Shown here: positions 19,462 through 52,520 of the stretch, piece after piece | Layout of the letters: every line of letters begins with the position of its first letter | How positions within the stretch are numbered: position 1 is the first letter of the stretch | DNA from: Pseudomonadota bacterium | GTDB taxonomy: Bacteria; Desulfobacterota; Desulfobacteria; Desulfobacterales; Desulfolunaceae | Assembly: GCA_018818835.1 (NCBI GenBank) | Contig: JAHIRD010000096.1 | Coordinates: 1 to 63,588 of the forward strand | Length of the DNA: 63,588 nucleotides | Direction of reading: 5' to 3' | Translations under genes and position numbers: made by a program | Notes under the pieces: generated by a model | What the model saw: only the letters and a program-made list of their open reading frames with translations | What the model was told of the DNA's origin: nothing | Database searches by the model: none

Positions 19462-20148
19462 TCAAATAAAATCAAGATAATAGCACCCGTTTTTCTCTTC
19501 AATTTTCATATTGAACATGGCGATGGTTTCCATGAAGGGTCGGCCCAGGAGAAAGGGGAGCATGGCTTTATCCACCTTGGCTTTTTCAACCAGGGTTTCT
19601 CTGAGGCTGTTGTCATAAGCGATCATTTCATTAATTTCCACGAGCACGGTCCCATCGGTATCCCCACTGAGTTTTTCGGTCAACTCCTTCATTTTGGCAT
19701 AGGAGCATCGTCCCTGGTGGTCTGAAATAAGATCCCACAGACCGTCCACATCGCCGAGAAGGTCCTCGCGCTGCAAGGGGTCTTCCGAATACTTCATTTC
19801 AATCTCAGTGGTGTCCCAGCATTTGAAGGCCCGGCATTCTGTTGGACGTGTCGTGTATATCTCGCATTGGTTGCGGTCTTTCAGATAAATACATTCCATG
19901 GTTTTTTTGGTGACATTGATCTTGATCAGATCCGTCGTGACAGGCACCATGGCCATTTTATCCCGGTCAAACAAAAATTCACCTTTACGAATGGTGTAAA
20001 GATTTGCCGACGGAATTTTACCGGTGCGAATCAGATGCGCATCGGCAAATCGAAGAATGGGACCGCCCCCGACGCAGCAGGAACTGCACCGGTCACAGGA
20101 TGTTTTGAAACCTTTGCCATCATCGCTGGTGATGTTACCCAGATCCAT
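19462..20148 (-). CDS. YkgJ-like cysteine-cluster protein
   Basis: A 228-residue cytoplasmic protein of the YkgJ (zinc- or iron-chelating Cys cluster) family. The N-terminal CDRCSSCCVGGGP and the central CIYLKDRNQCEIYTTRPTEC plus FKCW supply about eight conserved Cys. The family's biochemical role is unknown. The C-terminal 100 residues are helical and not conserved in the short family members. It lies downstream of the pyruvate:ferredoxin oxidoreductase gene on the same strand, but a terminator separates the two. Confidence 0.8.
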   Translation of the reverse strand: MDLGNITSDDGKGFKTSCDRCSSCCVGGGPILRFADAHLIRTGKIPSANLYTIRKGEFLFDRDKMAMVPVTTDLIKINVTKKTMECIYLKDRNQCEIYTTRPTECRAFKCWDTTEIEMKYSEDPLQREDLLGDVDGLWDLISDHQGRCSYAKMKELTEKLSGDTDGTVLVEINEMIAYDNSLRETLVEKAKVDKAMLPFLLGRPFMETIAMFNMKIEEKNGCYYLDFI

Positions 20149-30233: not shown

Positions 30234-32687
30234 ATGGGCATGAACGAATCTGACACATACATTGATGTTGCCATAAGTCTTCCGGCCTGGAAGACATACC
30301 TGTACTCTGTCCCAAAGGACATGAAAGACCTGATCACGGTGGGCCAACGTGTCCTTGTACCCTTCAATAACCGGAGGGTGACTGGCTACGTGCTTTCTGA
30401 AAGCATTGCCCCGGCCCAGGAGAATTTCAAGGTCAAAGCCATCATCGACATTCTGGATGACAGCCCCTTGTTCCATGGGTCTCAGATCCCCTTTTTTTTA
30501 TGGATTTCAAACTATTACATGTACCCTTTGGGTGAGGTCATCAAAAGTGCCCTTCCCGGCGGCATCAATACCCAGGACTCCCTTTGGGTAAGCCTGACAG
30601 ACCTTGGGAAAGAGGCCCTTCTGCAGAATAAGCTTTCCCCCAAGGAAAAACAGGTCCTTACCCTGCTTGAAACAGGAGACAAACGTTCAGGAGCCTTGAT
30701 ACGCGCCTGTGAGCCAGGCCTGTCCGCATCCATGATCAGCACCATGGCCCGGAAAAATCTTGTGAGCCTGACCCGTGAACTTAAAAAAGGAGCCGGGGGC
30801 CACCGATTCGAATTGTATGTCCAATCTGCCATAGATCACCGTTCCAGTGACCATTACAGCGATAAACGGAAAGAGGTTCTGGCCTATATCCAAGAGCACC
30901 AGGACCTGTCCGTCAGGGAACTGAAGGTCATATTCCCAAACGTCCAGGCCCAGGTCCGTTTTCTTGAAAAAGAAGGACAGGTGATCTGTACCCAAAAAAA
31001 AATCTACAGGGATCCCTTTGGCGACGCCATTCCTCTGGACACCCCACCTGCTTTAACCCTTGAGCAGAAACACACCGTCTCCCAGATGGGTGAACAGCTG
31101 GGCCTTGGTTTTTCGCCCTTTCTTCTGGCCGGTGTCACCGGAAGCGGAAAAACAGAAGTCTATTTGCAACTTGTTGAGCAAGCCCGTGAAAAAAAGATGT
31201 CCGCCCTTGTGCTGGTGCCTGAAATTGCCCTGATTTCCCAGACTGAAAGGCGATTCCGCATGCGCTTTGGTGAAAACATTGCTGTCCTGCACAGCGGACT
31301 TTCACACGGAGAAAAATTTGACCAGTGGATGCGGATTGCCCAAAAGGAGGTGTTTATTGTCATCGGTGCACGCTCCGCCATTTTTGCCCCCCTCGAAAAC
31401 CTGGGACTGGTGATTGTGGATGAAGAACATGACAACTCCTATAAGCAGGAAAACGGTCTGAAATACAATGCCAGGGATCTGGCCATCCTCAGGGCGAAGT
31501 TATCCGATGCGGTCTGTGTTCTGGGCTCGGCCACACCCTCTATCCAGTCCTATTATAACACGGTATCAGGAAAATTCCGGGAGCTTCGGCTCACCAAGCG
31601 TGTCAGCGACCGCCCCATGCCGGAAATCCAGGTGGTGGATCTTAAACCCTACAGGGACTACCCGGGCATTCGAAGTTTTATTACCCCCCCCCTTGAAGAG
31701 GCCATGGCCCGGACGCTCCACAACAAGGAGCAGATCCTTCTTTTCCTGAATCGTCGGGGTTATGCCAATTATCCGGTCTGTGCCAACTGCGGTGAGGCCA
31801 TGAAATGCGTGAGCTGCGACGTATCCCTGACCCTCCATCAATCCCGGAATGCGTATCGTTGCCATATGTGCAGTTATATGATTCCATCCAATTCCAAATG
31901 CAAAATCTGTAATTCGTCCAATATCAAGCACCTGGGATTTGGTACGGAAAAAATCGAAGCAGCGGTCAAAGCCCTGTTCCCTGAGGCTGTGGTGGCACGT
32001 ATGGACCAGGACACCACCACACGCAAAGGCTCGGTTCTCAGACTGCTCAAGGATATCAAAGAACGAAAAACCGATATTCTGGTGGGCACCCAGATGATTG
32101 CAAAAGGCCATGATTTCCCGGGGATCACCCTGGTGGGCATTATCTGCGCGGATCAGTCCCTCAATTTTCCTGATTTCAGGGCCTGCGAGAGAACGTTCCA
32201 GCTGCTTGCCCAGGTGGCCGGACGGGCCGGACGTGGTGACCAGCCCGGCAATGTCATCATGCAGACTTACAATCCCGATCATTTCAGTATTCAAGCCGCT
32301 GAGAAGCAAGATTTCTTCGAGTTTTACAATCAGGAAATCACCTTCCGGGAAAGTTTGGGCTACCCGCCCTATTCCCGCATGGTTCAGGTGAGGCTATCCG
32401 GCAAAAACCGTCAGAGTGTCAAGGATCAGGCCCTTCGGCTGGGTCACTATATCACGGCCCAGGTCTTTGAAAAGCAGCCTTTTTTTGACGGTCTCGGGGT
32501 CCTGGGCCCCATTGAGGCTCCCATACCCAAACTGGCGGACCATTACCGCTGGCAGATACTTTTAAAGTGCGGGGCACAGCGCCCCCTACACAGGATGGCC
32601 CGACTGATTGTTAAGGCCTCCTTCTCAGAATTGAAAAAAGACGGCGTTCGAATCACAACAGACATTGACCCCTATTATCTTATGTGA
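30234..32687 (+). CDS. priA: Primosomal replication restart helicase PriA
   Basis: PriA reloads the replisome at stalled forks. The 817-residue protein has an N-terminal DNA-binding domain (SLPAWKTYLYSVP), a helicase core with Walker A GVTGSGKTEV, the DEEH box (IVDEEHDNSYKQ) and motif TPSIQSYYN, a zinc region with eight Cys from CANCGEAMKCVSC to CKICNSSN, and the C-terminal motifs GTQMIAKGHDFPG and AGRAGRGDQPGN. All are intact. The start has weak initiation signals; an ATG two codons downstream is equally possible. The next gene begins 6 nt after its stop. Confidence 0.96.
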   Translation: MGMNESDTYIDVAISLPAWKTYLYSVPKDMKDLITVGQRVLVPFNNRRVTGYVLSESIAPAQENFKVKAIIDILDDSPLFHGSQIPFFLWISNYYMYPLGEVIKSALPGGINTQDSLWVSLTDLGKEALLQNKLSPKEKQVLTLLETGDKRSGALIRACEPGLSASMISTMARKNLVSLTRELKKGAGGHRFELYVQSAIDHRSSDHYSDKRKEVLAYIQEHQDLSVRELKVIFPNVQAQVRFLEKEGQVICTQKKIYRDPFGDAIPLDTPPALTLEQKHTVSQMGEQLGLGFSPFLLAGVTGSGKTEVYLQLVEQAREKKMSALVLVPEIALISQTERRFRMRFGENIAVLHSGLSHGEKFDQWMRIAQKEVFIVIGARSAIFAPLENLGLVIVDEEHDNSYKQENGLKYNARDLAILRAKLSDAVCVLGSATPSIQSYYNTVSGKFRELRLTKRVSDRPMPEIQVVDLKPYRDYPGIRSFITPPLEEAMARTLHNKEQILLFLNRRGYANYPVCANCGEAMKCVSCDVSLTLHQSRNAYRCHMCSYMIPSNSKCKICNSSNIKHLGFGTEKIEAAVKALFPEAVVARMDQDTTTRKGSVLRLLKDIKERKTDILVGTQMIAKGHDFPGITLVGIICADQSLNFPDFRACERTFQLLAQVAGRAGRGDQPGNVIMQTYNPDHFSIQAAEKQDFFEFYNQEITFRESLGYPPYSRMVQVRLSGKNRQSVKDQALRLGHYITAQVFEKQPFFDGLGVLGPIEAPIPKLADHYRWQILLKCGAQRPLHRMARLIVKASFSELKKDGVRITTDIDPYYLM

Positions 32688-32693
32688 GGCATT

Positions 32694-33209
32694 ATGAAAA
32701 TCGCCATCATGAGCGACAGCCATGACAATATCTGGAATCTGGAAAAGGCTCTTTCGTTAATTAAGACAGAAGAGGCATCAATGATTGTCCACTGCGGCGA
32801 CTTTGTAGCACCCTTCATGCTCCGGGAACTTGAAAAGGCCGGCATTCCAGTTTACGGTGTTCTGGGCAACAATGACGGCAGTCAGTTTCTTCTGGCCCAG
32901 ACAGCCTTGACTGTCTTGAAAAACATCCACCTTTTTGAGTTGATCGGCACTGTGGAGGCGGATGGTTTTCGAATCTGCTTCACCCACCAGCGGGAGGTTG
33001 CCGAAGGCCTGGCTTTCACCGGCCGCTATGATCTGGTCTGCTATGGACATTCCCATCAGTACAATCTTGAAAAAATCAAGGATACAATTCTTCTCAACCC
33101 CGGTGAAATCATGGGCAAAAACAAAGAGCCTGGTTTTTGTCTGGTGGACACGGAAAATCGTCATGTCAGACGACTGATCCTTGATGTCCCGCGAGGAATA
33201 GAAGCTTGA
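32694..33209 (+). CDS. YfcE/MJ0936-type metallophosphoesterase
   Basis: A 171-residue cytoplasmic phosphoesterase with the full metal-binding set: DSHDN (residues 8-12), GDF, GNND, and the late GHSHQYN. This is the compact YfcE-like family of broad phosphodiesterases. The gene starts 6 nt after priA and probably shares its transcript. The physiological substrate is unknown. Confidence 0.9.
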   Translation: MKIAIMSDSHDNIWNLEKALSLIKTEEASMIVHCGDFVAPFMLRELEKAGIPVYGVLGNNDGSQFLLAQTALTVLKNIHLFELIGTVEADGFRICFTHQREVAEGLAFTGRYDLVCYGHSHQYNLEKIKDTILLNPGEIMGKNKEPGFCLVDTENRHVRRLILDVPRGIEA

Positions 33210-33288
33210 CATTCTAATGCCGGAAGCCTAAGTTATGTGGTGCAGTTGTTCACTAAATGTTCATTTATTCTGGCACAGGACATGTATT

Positions 33289-34401
33289 ATGAATAAAAAA
33301 AGAGTGTTACATTGTTTCATTTTTGTTTTTGTTTTTTTTAGCCTTACCCTTCCAGGGTACGCTGGACAAAACCCCACTGAAACAGTTTATTTTGATCCTT
33401 TTGCGGCCACGCCCAGTATCGATTCCATGAATGCCCTTGAGACTATCAAACAAAAACTCAGCGAAAACCCCGAACTTCAGATCCTGATCGAGGGCCATGC
33501 CGATGCCGGCGAAGTCCGGCCCGAGGAAAAGGATGCTGTCTCATATCTCAAGAGCCTCTCCCGCATGAGAGCAGACTTTGTTTCCAACTGGTTGAAATCA
33601 GCGCTGGGCAACACAGCCTTAATCAGCCAGGTGGCCAGCTACGGGACCGAACGGCAGGGGGATAAATCGCTTCTGAAAGATCAGCATGCATCCAACAGAC
33701 GGGTGGATTTGACGATTTACACCAAAGACGCACCCCCTGAAGGTCTTTCTTCAGGTGACAGCCCCAAGGTCCTTGTCCCTGAAATGGTCCATGAATTTGA
33801 AGGTGTCCTTGAAAATACCAAGGTCACCTATGATTATCTGATCAAAAACACAGGGACAGCCACCCTGGACATCCTCAGCGTCAAACCCGGCTGAGGCTGC
33901 ACCGCTGTTTCGTACTCGAAACACATCCCTCCCGGCGGTGAGGGAACAATCACAATCAGCGTCAATACTCGTGGCTATGGCGGCAGGATACTTAAAAAAA
34001 ATATCCAGGTAACAACCAATGATCCGGCTAACAGCCATTTTGCCCTGACCATTACCGGTCAGATTAAAGCGTACGCAAGCATCAAACCAAACAGGGTGAG
34101 GTTTTCCGGAAAACTCAATGAAAAATTAAGCCGAACCATAACTATTATTCCTGACAAGGATTATCCCTTTAAAATCAGCACCCTATCTCTCAAAAACAAA
34201 ACAGAGGGTGTTCAGTTCAGCTTCACCAACCACACGGGTGAATCAGGGCCGGAATACACAGTGACCCTGGATGCGGCCAGTGACAAACCCGGCAGTTTCA
34301 GTGACACTCTGATTGTCAAAACAGACAGTTCCGACATCCCGGAAATCATGATTCCCTTGTCAGGCTATATCATGCCTCCCCCCCGGGATAACGGGAAATA
34401 G
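33289..34401 (+). CDS. Selenoprotein: OmpA-like domain fused to a DUF1573 domain, Sec202
   Basis: Read through the TGA at 33892-33894 this is a 370-residue exported protein. It has a signal peptide (residues 1-25), an OmpA/MotB-type peptidoglycan-binding domain (about 30-150: LIEGHADAGE, SRMRADFVSNWL, ASNRRVDLTIY), then a DUF1573 immunoglobulin-like domain (about 160-265) with NTGTATLDILSVKPG, Sec-GCT, and IPPGGEGTITISV, ITTNDP-like VTTNDP. DUF1573 normally has CGCT, so Sec replaces the first Cys. A further beta domain of unknown type runs to the end. The start at 33289 is chosen because a normal signal peptide follows and CAGGA lies 8 nt upstream. A gene caller would split it into a 201-residue and a 101-residue protein in the same frame. 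The pair Sec-Gly-Cys could be redox active in the periplasm. Confidence 0.88.
33892..33923 (+). promoter_or_regulatory. Selenocysteine codon and SECIS-like hairpin in the OmpA-DUF1573 gene
   Basis: Exactly 11 nt after the TGA (33892-33894), TGTTTCG (33906-33912) pairs perfectly with CGAAACA (33917-33923). If the top G-C pair is left open the loop is GUACUC and begins with GU. The 11-nt spacing is that of the E. coli fdhF SECIS mini-hairpin. The same reading frame stays open for another 168 codons. Confidence 0.85.
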
Positions 34402-34402
34402 G

Positions 34403-35035
34403 ATGGTTTCAACCTTAAACAATATGGTCAAGGTGGTTGTTTTCGATTGCGACGGTGTGATGTTTGATACGGAAAATGCCAACCGGATGTACTACAACAC
34501 CATTCTTTTGCATTTCAAACGTCCGCCCTTGAGCCAGGATCAGTTTGTCTATGTCCATATGAGTACGGTCAAAGAAGCCATCGCTTTCCTTTTCAATGAC
34601 CGGGAGGATCTGACCGATGTTTTCGATTTCTGCAAGACGATGAGCTATGACCCACTCATCCCCCATATGAGAATCGAACCGAACCTTATGCCCCTTCTTT
34701 CGGGCCTGAAATCGCACTACAAAACAGCCATTGCCACCAATCGTTCCAACACCATGCCCGCCGTCTTAAACCATTTCAAATTAGACCCGTTCTTTGATAT
34801 GGTGGTCACCTCCCTTGATGTTGAAAACCCAAAACCCCATCCGGAGCAACTGATTAAAATCATGAATCATTTTCATGCCAAACCGGATGAAATACTTTAT
34901 ATCGGTGACTCTAAAACCGATGAACAAGCCGCAAATAAAGCCCGGGTTCTTTTTGTTTCCTTTAACAATCCTTCCCTTGAAGCCCACTATCATGTCCGGG
35001 ATCTCAAGGAAGTGGAAACGCTACTGAACCTGTGA
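34403..35035 (+). CDS. HAD-family phosphatase (Gph/PGP-like)
   Basis: A 210-residue haloacid dehalogenase-type hydrolase. Motif I is VVFDCDGVMFDTE, motif II/Lys region is IATNRSN and NPKPHPEQL, and motif IV is YIGDSKTDEQAA. The alpha-helical cap is of the phosphoglycolate phosphatase type. It begins 1 nt after the selenoprotein stop codon, so the two are probably cotranslated. An ATG seven codons downstream is a possible alternative start. The substrate is unknown. Confidence 0.9.
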   Translation: MVSTLNNMVKVVVFDCDGVMFDTENANRMYYNTILLHFKRPPLSQDQFVYVHMSTVKEAIAFLFNDREDLTDVFDFCKTMSYDPLIPHMRIEPNLMPLLSGLKSHYKTAIATNRSNTMPAVLNHFKLDPFFDMVVTSLDVENPKPHPEQLIKIMNHFHAKPDEILYIGDSKTDEQAANKARVLFVSFNNPSLEAHYHVRDLKEVETLLNL

Positions 35036-35093
35036 TATGTCCAAAGGATAACACTATTCGAATAACGTATTTTAAAACCACAAGGAGCTTCAC

Positions 35094-35867
35094 ATGAAAA
35101 ACCCTCTTTTGATCGCTGTCCTGCTTGTCCCTTTTCTGGCTCTCTCCGGTTGTTCGGACTCCATGGGAGGCAAGAGCTCACCCAAAGTCACTGAGCTTAA
35201 AACCCAACCTGAAAAACTCGGTTATGCACTGGGTTCGGATCTGGGGAAAAATTTCAAAAAAAATGAAATGGAAATTGACCAGAACGCCTTTATCCAGGGC
35301 TTCGAAGACGGGCTGAACGATGCCAAGCCCCTGTTGACCCCCGAAGAAACCAAAGCCATCCAGCAGAGCGCCATTGCAGAGATGAGAACCAAAATGAATG
35401 AAAAACGGAAGCTGGCCTTTGAAACGAATAAAAAAGAGGGCGAAGAATTCCTTGCAGAAAATGCCAAGAAAGAGGGCGTGGTAACCACCGCAAGCGGTCT
35501 TCAGTACGAAGTTTTGACCGAAGGAGCAGGACCTGTTCCCACAGAAACGGACCGTGTTCAGGTCAATTATGCGGGTAAACTTCTTGACGGAACCGAATTT
35601 GACAGCTCCTATCAGCGAGGAAAACCTTCAACCTTCGGCGTTAAAGGTGTGATTCAAGGATGGACCGAAGCCCTTACAATGATGAAAACGGGAAGTAAAT
35701 GGCGGATCTATGTCCCCAGCGAACTGGCCTACAAAGATCGAGGAGCCGGACAAAAAATCGGCCCCAACGCCGCCCTGATCTTTGATATCGAACTGATCTC
35801 CATCGAAGGAAGCCCTGAAGCAAAAACAGAAGAAACACCCGCAACCGAACCTGAAAAAAAATCCTGA
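35094..35867 (+). CDS. FKBP-type peptidyl-prolyl isomerase lipoprotein (FkpA/Mip-like)
   Basis: A 257-residue lipoprotein with lipobox LSGC (Cys20 region). The N-terminal helical dimerisation domain (KLGYALGSDLGKNFKKNEME and the long helix to about 120) precedes the FKBP domain (about 145-235: VQVNYAGKLLDGTEFDSSY, GVIQGWTEAL, GPNAALIFDIELI). This is the FkpA/Mip layout for folding periplasmic or outer-membrane proteins. The acidic Pro/Thr/Glu tail is unusual but harmless. AAGGAG precedes the ATG. A hairpin follows the stop. Confidence 0.93.
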   Translation: MKNPLLIAVLLVPFLALSGCSDSMGGKSSPKVTELKTQPEKLGYALGSDLGKNFKKNEMEIDQNAFIQGFEDGLNDAKPLLTPEETKAIQQSAIAEMRTKMNEKRKLAFETNKKEGEEFLAENAKKEGVVTTASGLQYEVLTEGAGPVPTETDRVQVNYAGKLLDGTEFDSSYQRGKPSTFGVKGVIQGWTEALTMMKTGSKWRIYVPSELAYKDRGAGQKIGPNAALIFDIELISIEGSPEAKTEETPATEPEKKS

Positions 35868-35875
35868 TCAACCTG

Positions 35876-35906
35876 CTGTCCGGGCATGGAATCCATGCCC
35901 GGACAG
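35876..35906 (+). terminator. Hairpin after the FKBP gene
   Basis: CTGTCCGGGCATG (35876-35888) and CATGCCCGGACAG (35894-35906) form a perfect 13-bp stem with a 5-nt loop. Only a weak T-rich stretch follows, so termination strength is uncertain. Confidence 0.75.
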
Positions 35907-51825: not shown

Positions 51826-52436
51826 GGTCTTCCATTCTCCACATCATAAACTATTTAAAATTTGCGAAACGACCGATGCTGACTTGCCCATATTACACGA
51901 AAGGGTATCCAAAATCGTTGCCAGTATATTTTGTCTATATATATTTTCAATATAGCATTGAAGCCCAAAGATCAAGGACGATTCAATGGTATAAACGAGA
52001 AACTGTCAAGGTTTTAAAGCTTTTAAGGCAACTTTCCCATTTTTTTTTATTGGGGCGGGGTTCCCTGGCGTGTCCCAAAGGAATTCAATCATCATCATAT
52101 CAATCAACGTTTTCATTGTTTTAAATCGACATAACCACACAAACACATTGACATTCAGGACATTTCAAACTATGAAATTAAAAAACATGTATACAAATTG
52201 TCTGGATATTTCCCATTGAACCAGAGATGATAATCGGATGTGACTCGCAAAATGTCTTTTTCGTCACGGATCTTTTGCCAAAGAACTGATTCACATCCGG
52301 GTCATGCATATTTCTTGCTCAATGATGCATCCGGGCCATGCCCATACAGGGGGGCACTGTTGTTTTTTAAGGGGGGGAGAAAATGTTTTTCAACTACCGT
52401 TTCTACCCGCATCGTTTTTTTTAATTTTCTTTATTT
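51826..52436. other. Divergent intergenic region between the secretion operon and the riboswitch
   Basis: About 610 nt with no credible gene. Several stretches are AT-rich (TATATATATTTTC at 51936) and could hold the divergent promoters. A few short open frames cross it, but they lack ribosome-binding sites and family signatures. Confidence 0.45.
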
Positions 52437-52520
52437 TTTTGGCCAAACCCATCGTGAGGTGGGGACGGAAAGCCACGGATCTTGCTCAGGGTTGAAGATG
52501 GCCGGGTTGCCGGGATTGGT
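52437..52520 (+). promoter_or_regulatory. Cyclic-di-GMP-I (GEMM-I) riboswitch
   Basis: The conserved core is present in order: GGCCAAACC at 52441, then a P2 hairpin, GGGACGGAAAGCC (52461-52473), and the P3 side with GGCCGGGTTGCC (52500-52511). Aligned with the Vc2 aptamer of Vibrio cholerae, the position equal to G21 is C and that equal to C46 is G, a compensatory change that supports a real RNA. The position equal to G20 is G, which favours c-di-GMP over the cGAMP-binding variant. CGGGTT (52503-52508) could instead pair with AACCCG (52569-52574), which precedes ATTTTT, giving a possible terminator switch. Confidence 0.88.

Follow-up and report, generated by a model that had tools for sequence, protein, structure and literature searches.

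The question raised by this locus is whether an in-frame TGA in the window (the whole stretch of 63,588 nucleotides that was analysed) ends a protein or encodes one of its residues. The frame running from ATG 33289 to TAG 34399–34401 contains two stops in all, the terminal TAG and the TGA at 33892–33894, which is its sole internal stop. This TGA is codon 202, comes after 201 codons, is followed by Gly-Cys-Thr and holds the place of residue 1 in the DUF1573 motif CGCT, i.e., (Sec/Cys)-Gly-Cys-Thr. A previous sequence-only reading had taken it for a selenocysteine codon, and re-reading of the letters confirmed that two open frames lie in the same frame around the TGA, that the TGA falls on the first Cys of the motif and that a perfect 7-bp hairpin (7/7 Watson-Crick pairs) begins after a spacer of 11 nt. 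The next Met, which had been placed 67 codons further on, did not stand, as the codon at 34096 is GTG and the nearest in-frame ATG 3' of the TGA is at 34348. Because the first ATG comes only there, the part 3' of the TGA lacks a good start codon. Under the standard code the gene would appear as a short OmpA-like protein with a fragment behind it, whereas the joined frame gives an architecture that recurs. The features are collected in Table 1.

Table 1. Coordinates of the features discussed, in window positions unless a contig or locus is named.
Feature	Position	Strand	Basis
YfcE-family phosphodiesterase, upstream neighbour	32694..33209	+	TIGR00040, 102.5 bits; homologue in 22/167 loci
Shine-Dalgarno-like AGGA	33277..33280	+	sequence reading; 8 nt 5' of ATG
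CDS, OmpA-DUF1573 selenoprotein (OS_HP2 family), 370 residues, probable Sec202, stop TAG	33289..34401	+	frame and profile matches
Probable signal peptide, residues 1–25	33289..33363	+	by eye, cleavage after Ala25; model helix at residues 3–20
OmpA-like domain PF00691, residues 43–137	33415..33699	+	Pfam 28.0 bits and fold match
DUF1573/OS_HP2 Ig-like domain, residues 165–259	33781..34065	+	PF07610, 72.1 bits; NF041425, 128.1 bits
In-frame TGA, very probably read as selenocysteine (Sec202 of Sec-Gly-Cys-Thr)	33892..33894	+	frame and homologue alignment
Codon for Cys204, likely resolving cysteine	33898..33900	+	invariant across the 62-row alignment
Bacterial SECIS-like hairpin, 7 bp	33906..33923 (arms 33906–33912/33917–33923; loop TACT 33913–33916)	+	sequence and covariation
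Second Ig-like domain, residues 262–362	34072..34374	+	aligned across the entire 62-row set; model
HAD-family hydrolase, downstream neighbour	34403..35035	+	adjoins 38/62 loci; homologue in 128/167 loci
MauE-DUF1573 fusions	L072:1495–2640; L177:1498–2667	-	profile matches and reading
Second SelB and second UCA tRNA	G000:C160:18003–19643 and about 19976–20067	-	locus L183:6001–8068

Conservation of the TGA codon and of the segment behind it

Homologues were searched in 58 genomes, including that of the window, and 67 matches at E 1e-8 or better were obtained from 53 of them. The codon corresponding to residue 202 was TGA in 53 matches and Cys in a CGC motif in 11, in line with the Cys homologues that the sequence-only reading had proposed to look for at this position, and three distant paralogues contained CCG or CCGC. 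A true stop was found in none of them, all 67 continuing through to residue 348 or further. In the alignment A1, which comprises 62 of the 67 matches, the sole invariant columns were N187, G189, residue 202, G203 and C204. The TGA copy L081 has the motif UGC, and L082 (G056:C39:16999–17619), which lies outside A1, is an OS_HP2 copy with Sec-Ala-Ser (UAS) that has kept Sec and lost the partner Cys; thus, the partner Cys is not always required. The window's own genome holds no other copy of the protein at E 0.01.

A match at E 1e-15 was obtained in at least 174 of the 194 sampled genomes of the order. Among named genomes, a first scan using a single protein as query found no relative, and the scan with ten aligned rows returned 317 loci; among the best 80 of these 317, which were examined, 77 have TGA and three have Cys. 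These 80 include records of Desulfosarcina, Desulfatitalea, Desulfocicer and Olavius symbionts, and the complete chromosomes of Desulfosarcina widdelii (L136) and D. alkanivorans (L113) carry the same TGA. The highest-ranking named match, the MAG Desulforapulum autotrophicum FI88_52_17 (L083), is identical around the motif to L004, a copy from a genome of the window's own family (G001).

Neutral evolution of the part downstream of the TGA, which had been named as a counter-indication, was not observed. The dN/dS 3' of the TGA was 0.09–0.31 in seven of the eight pairs, i.e., in all pairs where dS was computable (L010/L016, where it was not, is left out of the range). The values were about 0.18 for L028/L064, 0.23 for L061/L062, 0.22 for L060/L028, 0.18 for L060/L064, 0.09 for L167/L168 and 0.31 for L031/L051, a pair of Cys copies. 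The sole pair using the window's own gene (L001/L004) gave 0.25, near saturation. In the pairs compared, purifying selection acts on the segment 3' of the TGA.

The downstream hairpin and the decoding machinery

The hairpin of the window is by itself unremarkable (z -0.95; 35 of 200 shuffles fold equally well), and its covariation was monitored over five core pairs in a fixed register in 129 distinct Sec copies and 13 Cys copies, a set that leaves out L081 and L082 (both Sec) and the three distant paralogues. All five pairs were complete in 95 of the 129 Sec copies and incomplete in 34, against 38% expected to be complete under re-dealt synonymous codons (sd 2.5%, at most 46% in any of 1000 shuffles), a shuffle that does not preserve kinship among the sequences. 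In contrast, only 1 of the 13 Cys copies was fully paired in register (Fisher p 4e-6, relatedness ignored). A 5-bp stem in any register was present in 123/129 Sec copies and 4/13 Cys copies. Pairs 17-30 and 18-29, numbered from the T of the TGA, swap C-G and T-A freely. Among the Cys copies, the hairpin is perfect in L150 and retains four of the five pairs in L007, L047 and L106; L150/L177 and L106 may represent recent Sec-to-Cys changes. The Rfam model SECIS_1 (RF00031) matched nowhere, and its silence is uninformative because the controls also gave no match.

A genome without selA, selB or selC had earlier been said to speak against selenocysteine. All three are present in the window's genome, and selD too: it encodes SelB, a tRNA-Sec (74.1 bits), SelA (607 bits) and SelD (363.5 bits), the gene of the latter having its own in-frame TGA in the context AAGUAAKI.

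The same genome encodes a second SelB that shares 28.9% identity with the main one and adjoins a second UCA tRNA. SelB of this second type was found in 6 of 39 other genomes searched (7/40 with the window's own), with 34–49% identity to the second SelB of the window's genome as compared with 26–30% for other SelB matches. The tRNA beside it was detected by ARAGORN at six of the seven loci and by Rfam at gathering score at five; L189 is cut at a contig end. All six of these tRNAs have U73 and an encoded CCA, whereas the main tRNA-Sec has G73. In G001, a formate-dehydrogenase-like ORF (by eye; L184:3314–5938, minus strand) adjoins the second SelB and contains Cys in RVCHAP, presumably at the place where formate dehydrogenase usually has Sec. 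Since U73 is an identity base of CysRS, another amino acid is possible for the second pair, which may insert it, perhaps Cys, at some UGA codons. According to the available passages of PMC5330540, G73 is essential for tRNA-Sec, and several bacteria have two tRNA-Sec genes. The phrase 'two SelB' was absent from the literature on the subject, among the matches listed, and no mention of a second SelB was found in PMC5424206.

Three alternatives to selenocysteine at this codon were weighed. If the TGA were a genuine stop, the locus would encode a 201-residue OmpA-like protein plus a decaying or separately started fragment; standard translation does terminate at 33892–33894, and GTG 34096 could begin the frame of 101 residues. 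This is very improbable, as 53/67 matches have TGA at the identical codon and read on in frame, the dN/dS behind it is well below 1 in the computable pairs, the stop would split an Ig domain modelled at a pLDDT of about 97, and the first in-frame ATG is as distant as 34348. The stop or pseudogene explanation was rejected on the shared and read-through TGA of the homologues and the purifying selection downstream. An error of sequencing or assembly in a TGT or TGC codon would agree with the Cys found at this position in 11/67 matches and with a genome assembled in 334 contigs, and yet it has hardly any probability left and was rejected, because the same TGA is shared by dozens of other genomes including the two complete Desulfosarcina chromosomes. 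The UGA might also be read by the second SelB/UCA-tRNA pair to give another amino acid, perhaps Cys, for which the divergent SelB and the U73 of its tRNA in the window's own genome would speak. However, the second SelB occurs in just 7 of 40 genomes and TGA copies of OS_HP2 in most of those searched, so the ordinary Sec system suffices elsewhere, and decoding by this pair is a very unlikely explanation here. The occurrence of TGA and Cys at residue 202 in the homologues, the covariation of the hairpin, the purifying selection and the presence of the machinery together argue that UGA 33892–33894 is very probably decoded as selenocysteine, as the sequence-only reading had it.

Family identity, domains and the OmpA fusion

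The protein was matched by the NCBIfam model NF041425, 'OS_HP2 family (seleno)protein', at 128.1 bits (cut-off 100), and the same model matched 62 of 62 members of A1 at E 0.01 or better. It is a member of a known family with an unusual OmpA-like architecture, and the earlier proposal of a new selenoprotein does not hold, as OS_HP2 was in print in 2008 and has an NCBIfam model of its own. The OS_HP2 selenoprotein is reportedly traced to a 2007 paper of Zhang and Gladyshev, going by tables and reference lists. In the passages available, OS_HP2 is listed with pfam07610 and UxC (PMC2398784, 2008), and the DUF1573 selenoprotein is listed with UGC in two review tables (PMC9312934, 2022; PMC13188914, 2026), the latter citing the 2007 Olavius algarvensis paper. 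DUF1573 is absent from the accessible main text of PMC12013277, and the available passages on the family do not state a function of OS_HP2.

Export and domain content were then judged from the profile matches and a predicted structure. No lipobox was seen by eye in residues 1–25. The PF00691 match is marginal (28.0 bits against the Pfam cut-off of 27.2), and Asp72 (GHAD) and Arg94 (LSRMRA) occupy, by reading, the usual places of the OmpA-like motif, where Asp and Arg hold diaminopimelate. The AlphaFold2 model built from A1 had a mean pLDDT of 88.4, with 91–98 in blocks of ten over residues 161–360 and 47–91 over the OmpA-like part, and it puts residue 202 in the turn joining strands 193–200 and 204–209. 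When the Foldseek hits were re-aligned, residues 26–145 matched the OmpA C-terminal-like domain 9uu2 (Z 11.1, 2.7 Å over 107 residues) and Pal (Z 10.6 for 5n2c, and 10.2); for residues 160–261 the matches were to Ig domains, that of VesC at Z 12.1 and that of VesB at Z 12.0, both at about 2 Å. A sequence search of solved structures gave a weak best match to 2qsv (E 0.0025) and weaker ones, e.g., troponin I. OmpA-like and DUF1573 domains had been expected in one exported protein and both were detected by Pfam; an exported two-Ig protein bearing an OmpA-fold domain is predicted with high confidence.

The fusion is not known as a described selenoprotein, and we found no description of it in the literature on DUF1573, OS_HP2 and peptidoglycan-binding selenoproteins. 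DUF1573 together with OmpA returned a single paper, on iron deficiency in Bacteroidetes, whose abstract points to a different topic, and selenoprotein together with peptidoglycan-binding returned only a P. gingivalis CRISPR study, represented by its abstract. The fusion recurs within the order, with at least 10 cases among the 194 genomes sampled (the window, L004, L005, L017 and L163–L168), spread over families f1, f19, f28, f56 and f66. The presence of the N-terminal domain was judged by the length of the open frame 5' of the motif, and only some copies were read letter by letter (sets of 30 and 9, plus the N-terminal parts of 28). Nine of the ten fused proteins pass the PF00691 cut-off and L163 scores 26.2; the Asp is lost in four of them (L017, L163, L167 and L168), whereas the window's protein keeps Asp72 and Arg94. 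In genus g3 of family f1, five of the six genomes have a copy without the OmpA domain, and G007 has no match. In a quick tree the four fused rows require three changes, with the window and L004 pairing at a support of 96; a single origin of the fusion may still be compatible with this tree.

Gene neighbourhood and putative function

The gene order in the window is a PriA-like helicase (by eye), the YfcE phosphodiesterase, the OmpA-DUF1573 gene, the HAD hydrolase and an FKBP isomerase. Neighbours were counted over 167 loci, in which some records are repeated; a PriA homologue is present in 80 of them, many flanks being short. The HAD and YfcE neighbours are silent on a redox role. MauE homologues were found in 9 of the 167 loci (seven distinct ones, L123/L171 and L150/L177 each being a single record), and eight of the nine also have a rhodanese. 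A MauE membrane domain is fused to the DUF1573 (OS_HP2) domain in L072, where the motif is UGC, and in L177, where it is CGC, and the MauE proteins at OS_HP2 loci bear, by reading, a CGC of their own. A thiol-redox role is suggested by these fusions and neighbours, all from the loci of other copies. The MauE/rhodanese copies lie elsewhere than the priA-HAD type of locus that the window has, and at L001, the locus of the window itself (window 31789–35898), the search for a MauE homologue was negative.

Trx_3 homologues occur in 4 of the 167 loci. At L076, a methyltransferase gene, which we take to resemble arsenite methyltransferase, and a small Trx_3/ArsD-like protein lie about 0.3–1.4 kb before the Sec codon. 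The sole Rfam match in the window at gathering scores is a c-di-GMP-I riboswitch at 52432–52514 (plus strand, 59.9 bits).

The best overall reading, which we consider likely, is a peptidoglycan-tethered periplasmic Sec-Gly-Cys redox protein of the OS_HP2 family. The ribosome would read UGA 33892–33894 as selenocysteine using SelB, tRNA-Sec and the downstream hairpin, the signal peptide would export the protein, and the OmpA-like domain would probably bind peptidoglycan. The first of the two Ig-like domains would then present Sec202-Gly-Cys204 in the inter-strand turn, where Sec202 may attack an oxidant of the periplasm such as a disulfide, a polysulfide or a peroxide. Resolution by Cys204 may give a selenenylsulfide, and the pair could be reset by a thiol-redox protein of the membrane, of the MauE/DoxX type. 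Taken separately, the putative peptidoglycan tether through the OmpA-like domain is quite probable, the putative thiol/selenol redox role of the window's protein is plausible and mildly favoured, and a MauE-type partner for the window's own copy is doubtful.

Binding of a metal or metalloid (e.g., Hg, As or Cu) by Sec-Gly-Cys, rather than redox cycling, was also considered, as CXC-type motifs can bind metals and the L076 copy adjoins the arsenite-methyltransferase-like and ArsD-like genes. It is judged unlikely: the MauE and rhodanese neighbours and fusions indicate thiol chemistry, the Sec copy L082 is without a Cys ligand, and no metal gene is among the window neighbours examined. Returning to redox cycling, it is conceivable, though rather improbable in full, that the wall-held Sec-Gly-Cys passes electrons with an inner-membrane CGC protein of the MauE/DoxX type and treats periplasmic sulfur, selenium or arsenic species of sulfate reducers. 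If so, the fusion of MauE with DUF1573 would combine this relay in a single chain. With the OmpA-DUF1573 architecture, the Sec centre is probably anchored at the cell wall. The MauE-DUF1573 fusions, for their part, offer a concrete candidate partner for the OS_HP2 family.

Compared with known systems, the window's protein shares with OS_HP2 (NF041425, PF07610) the DUF1573 domain, the UGC motif and Sec where other members have the first Cys, but most relatives seen have only a signal-peptide-like stretch before two Ig domains, whereas the window's protein adds an N-terminal OmpA-like domain. This domain resembles those of Pal and the OmpA C-terminus in PF00691, in its fold (Z 10–11) and, by reading, in the places of Asp72 and Arg94, and differs from them in being divergent (28.0 bits) and fused to a Sec-bearing Ig domain. 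CGC membrane proteins of the MauE/DoxX type are fused to or lie beside other OS_HP2 copies (L072, L177, L015 and L070), whereas no MauE homologue was found at the window's locus.
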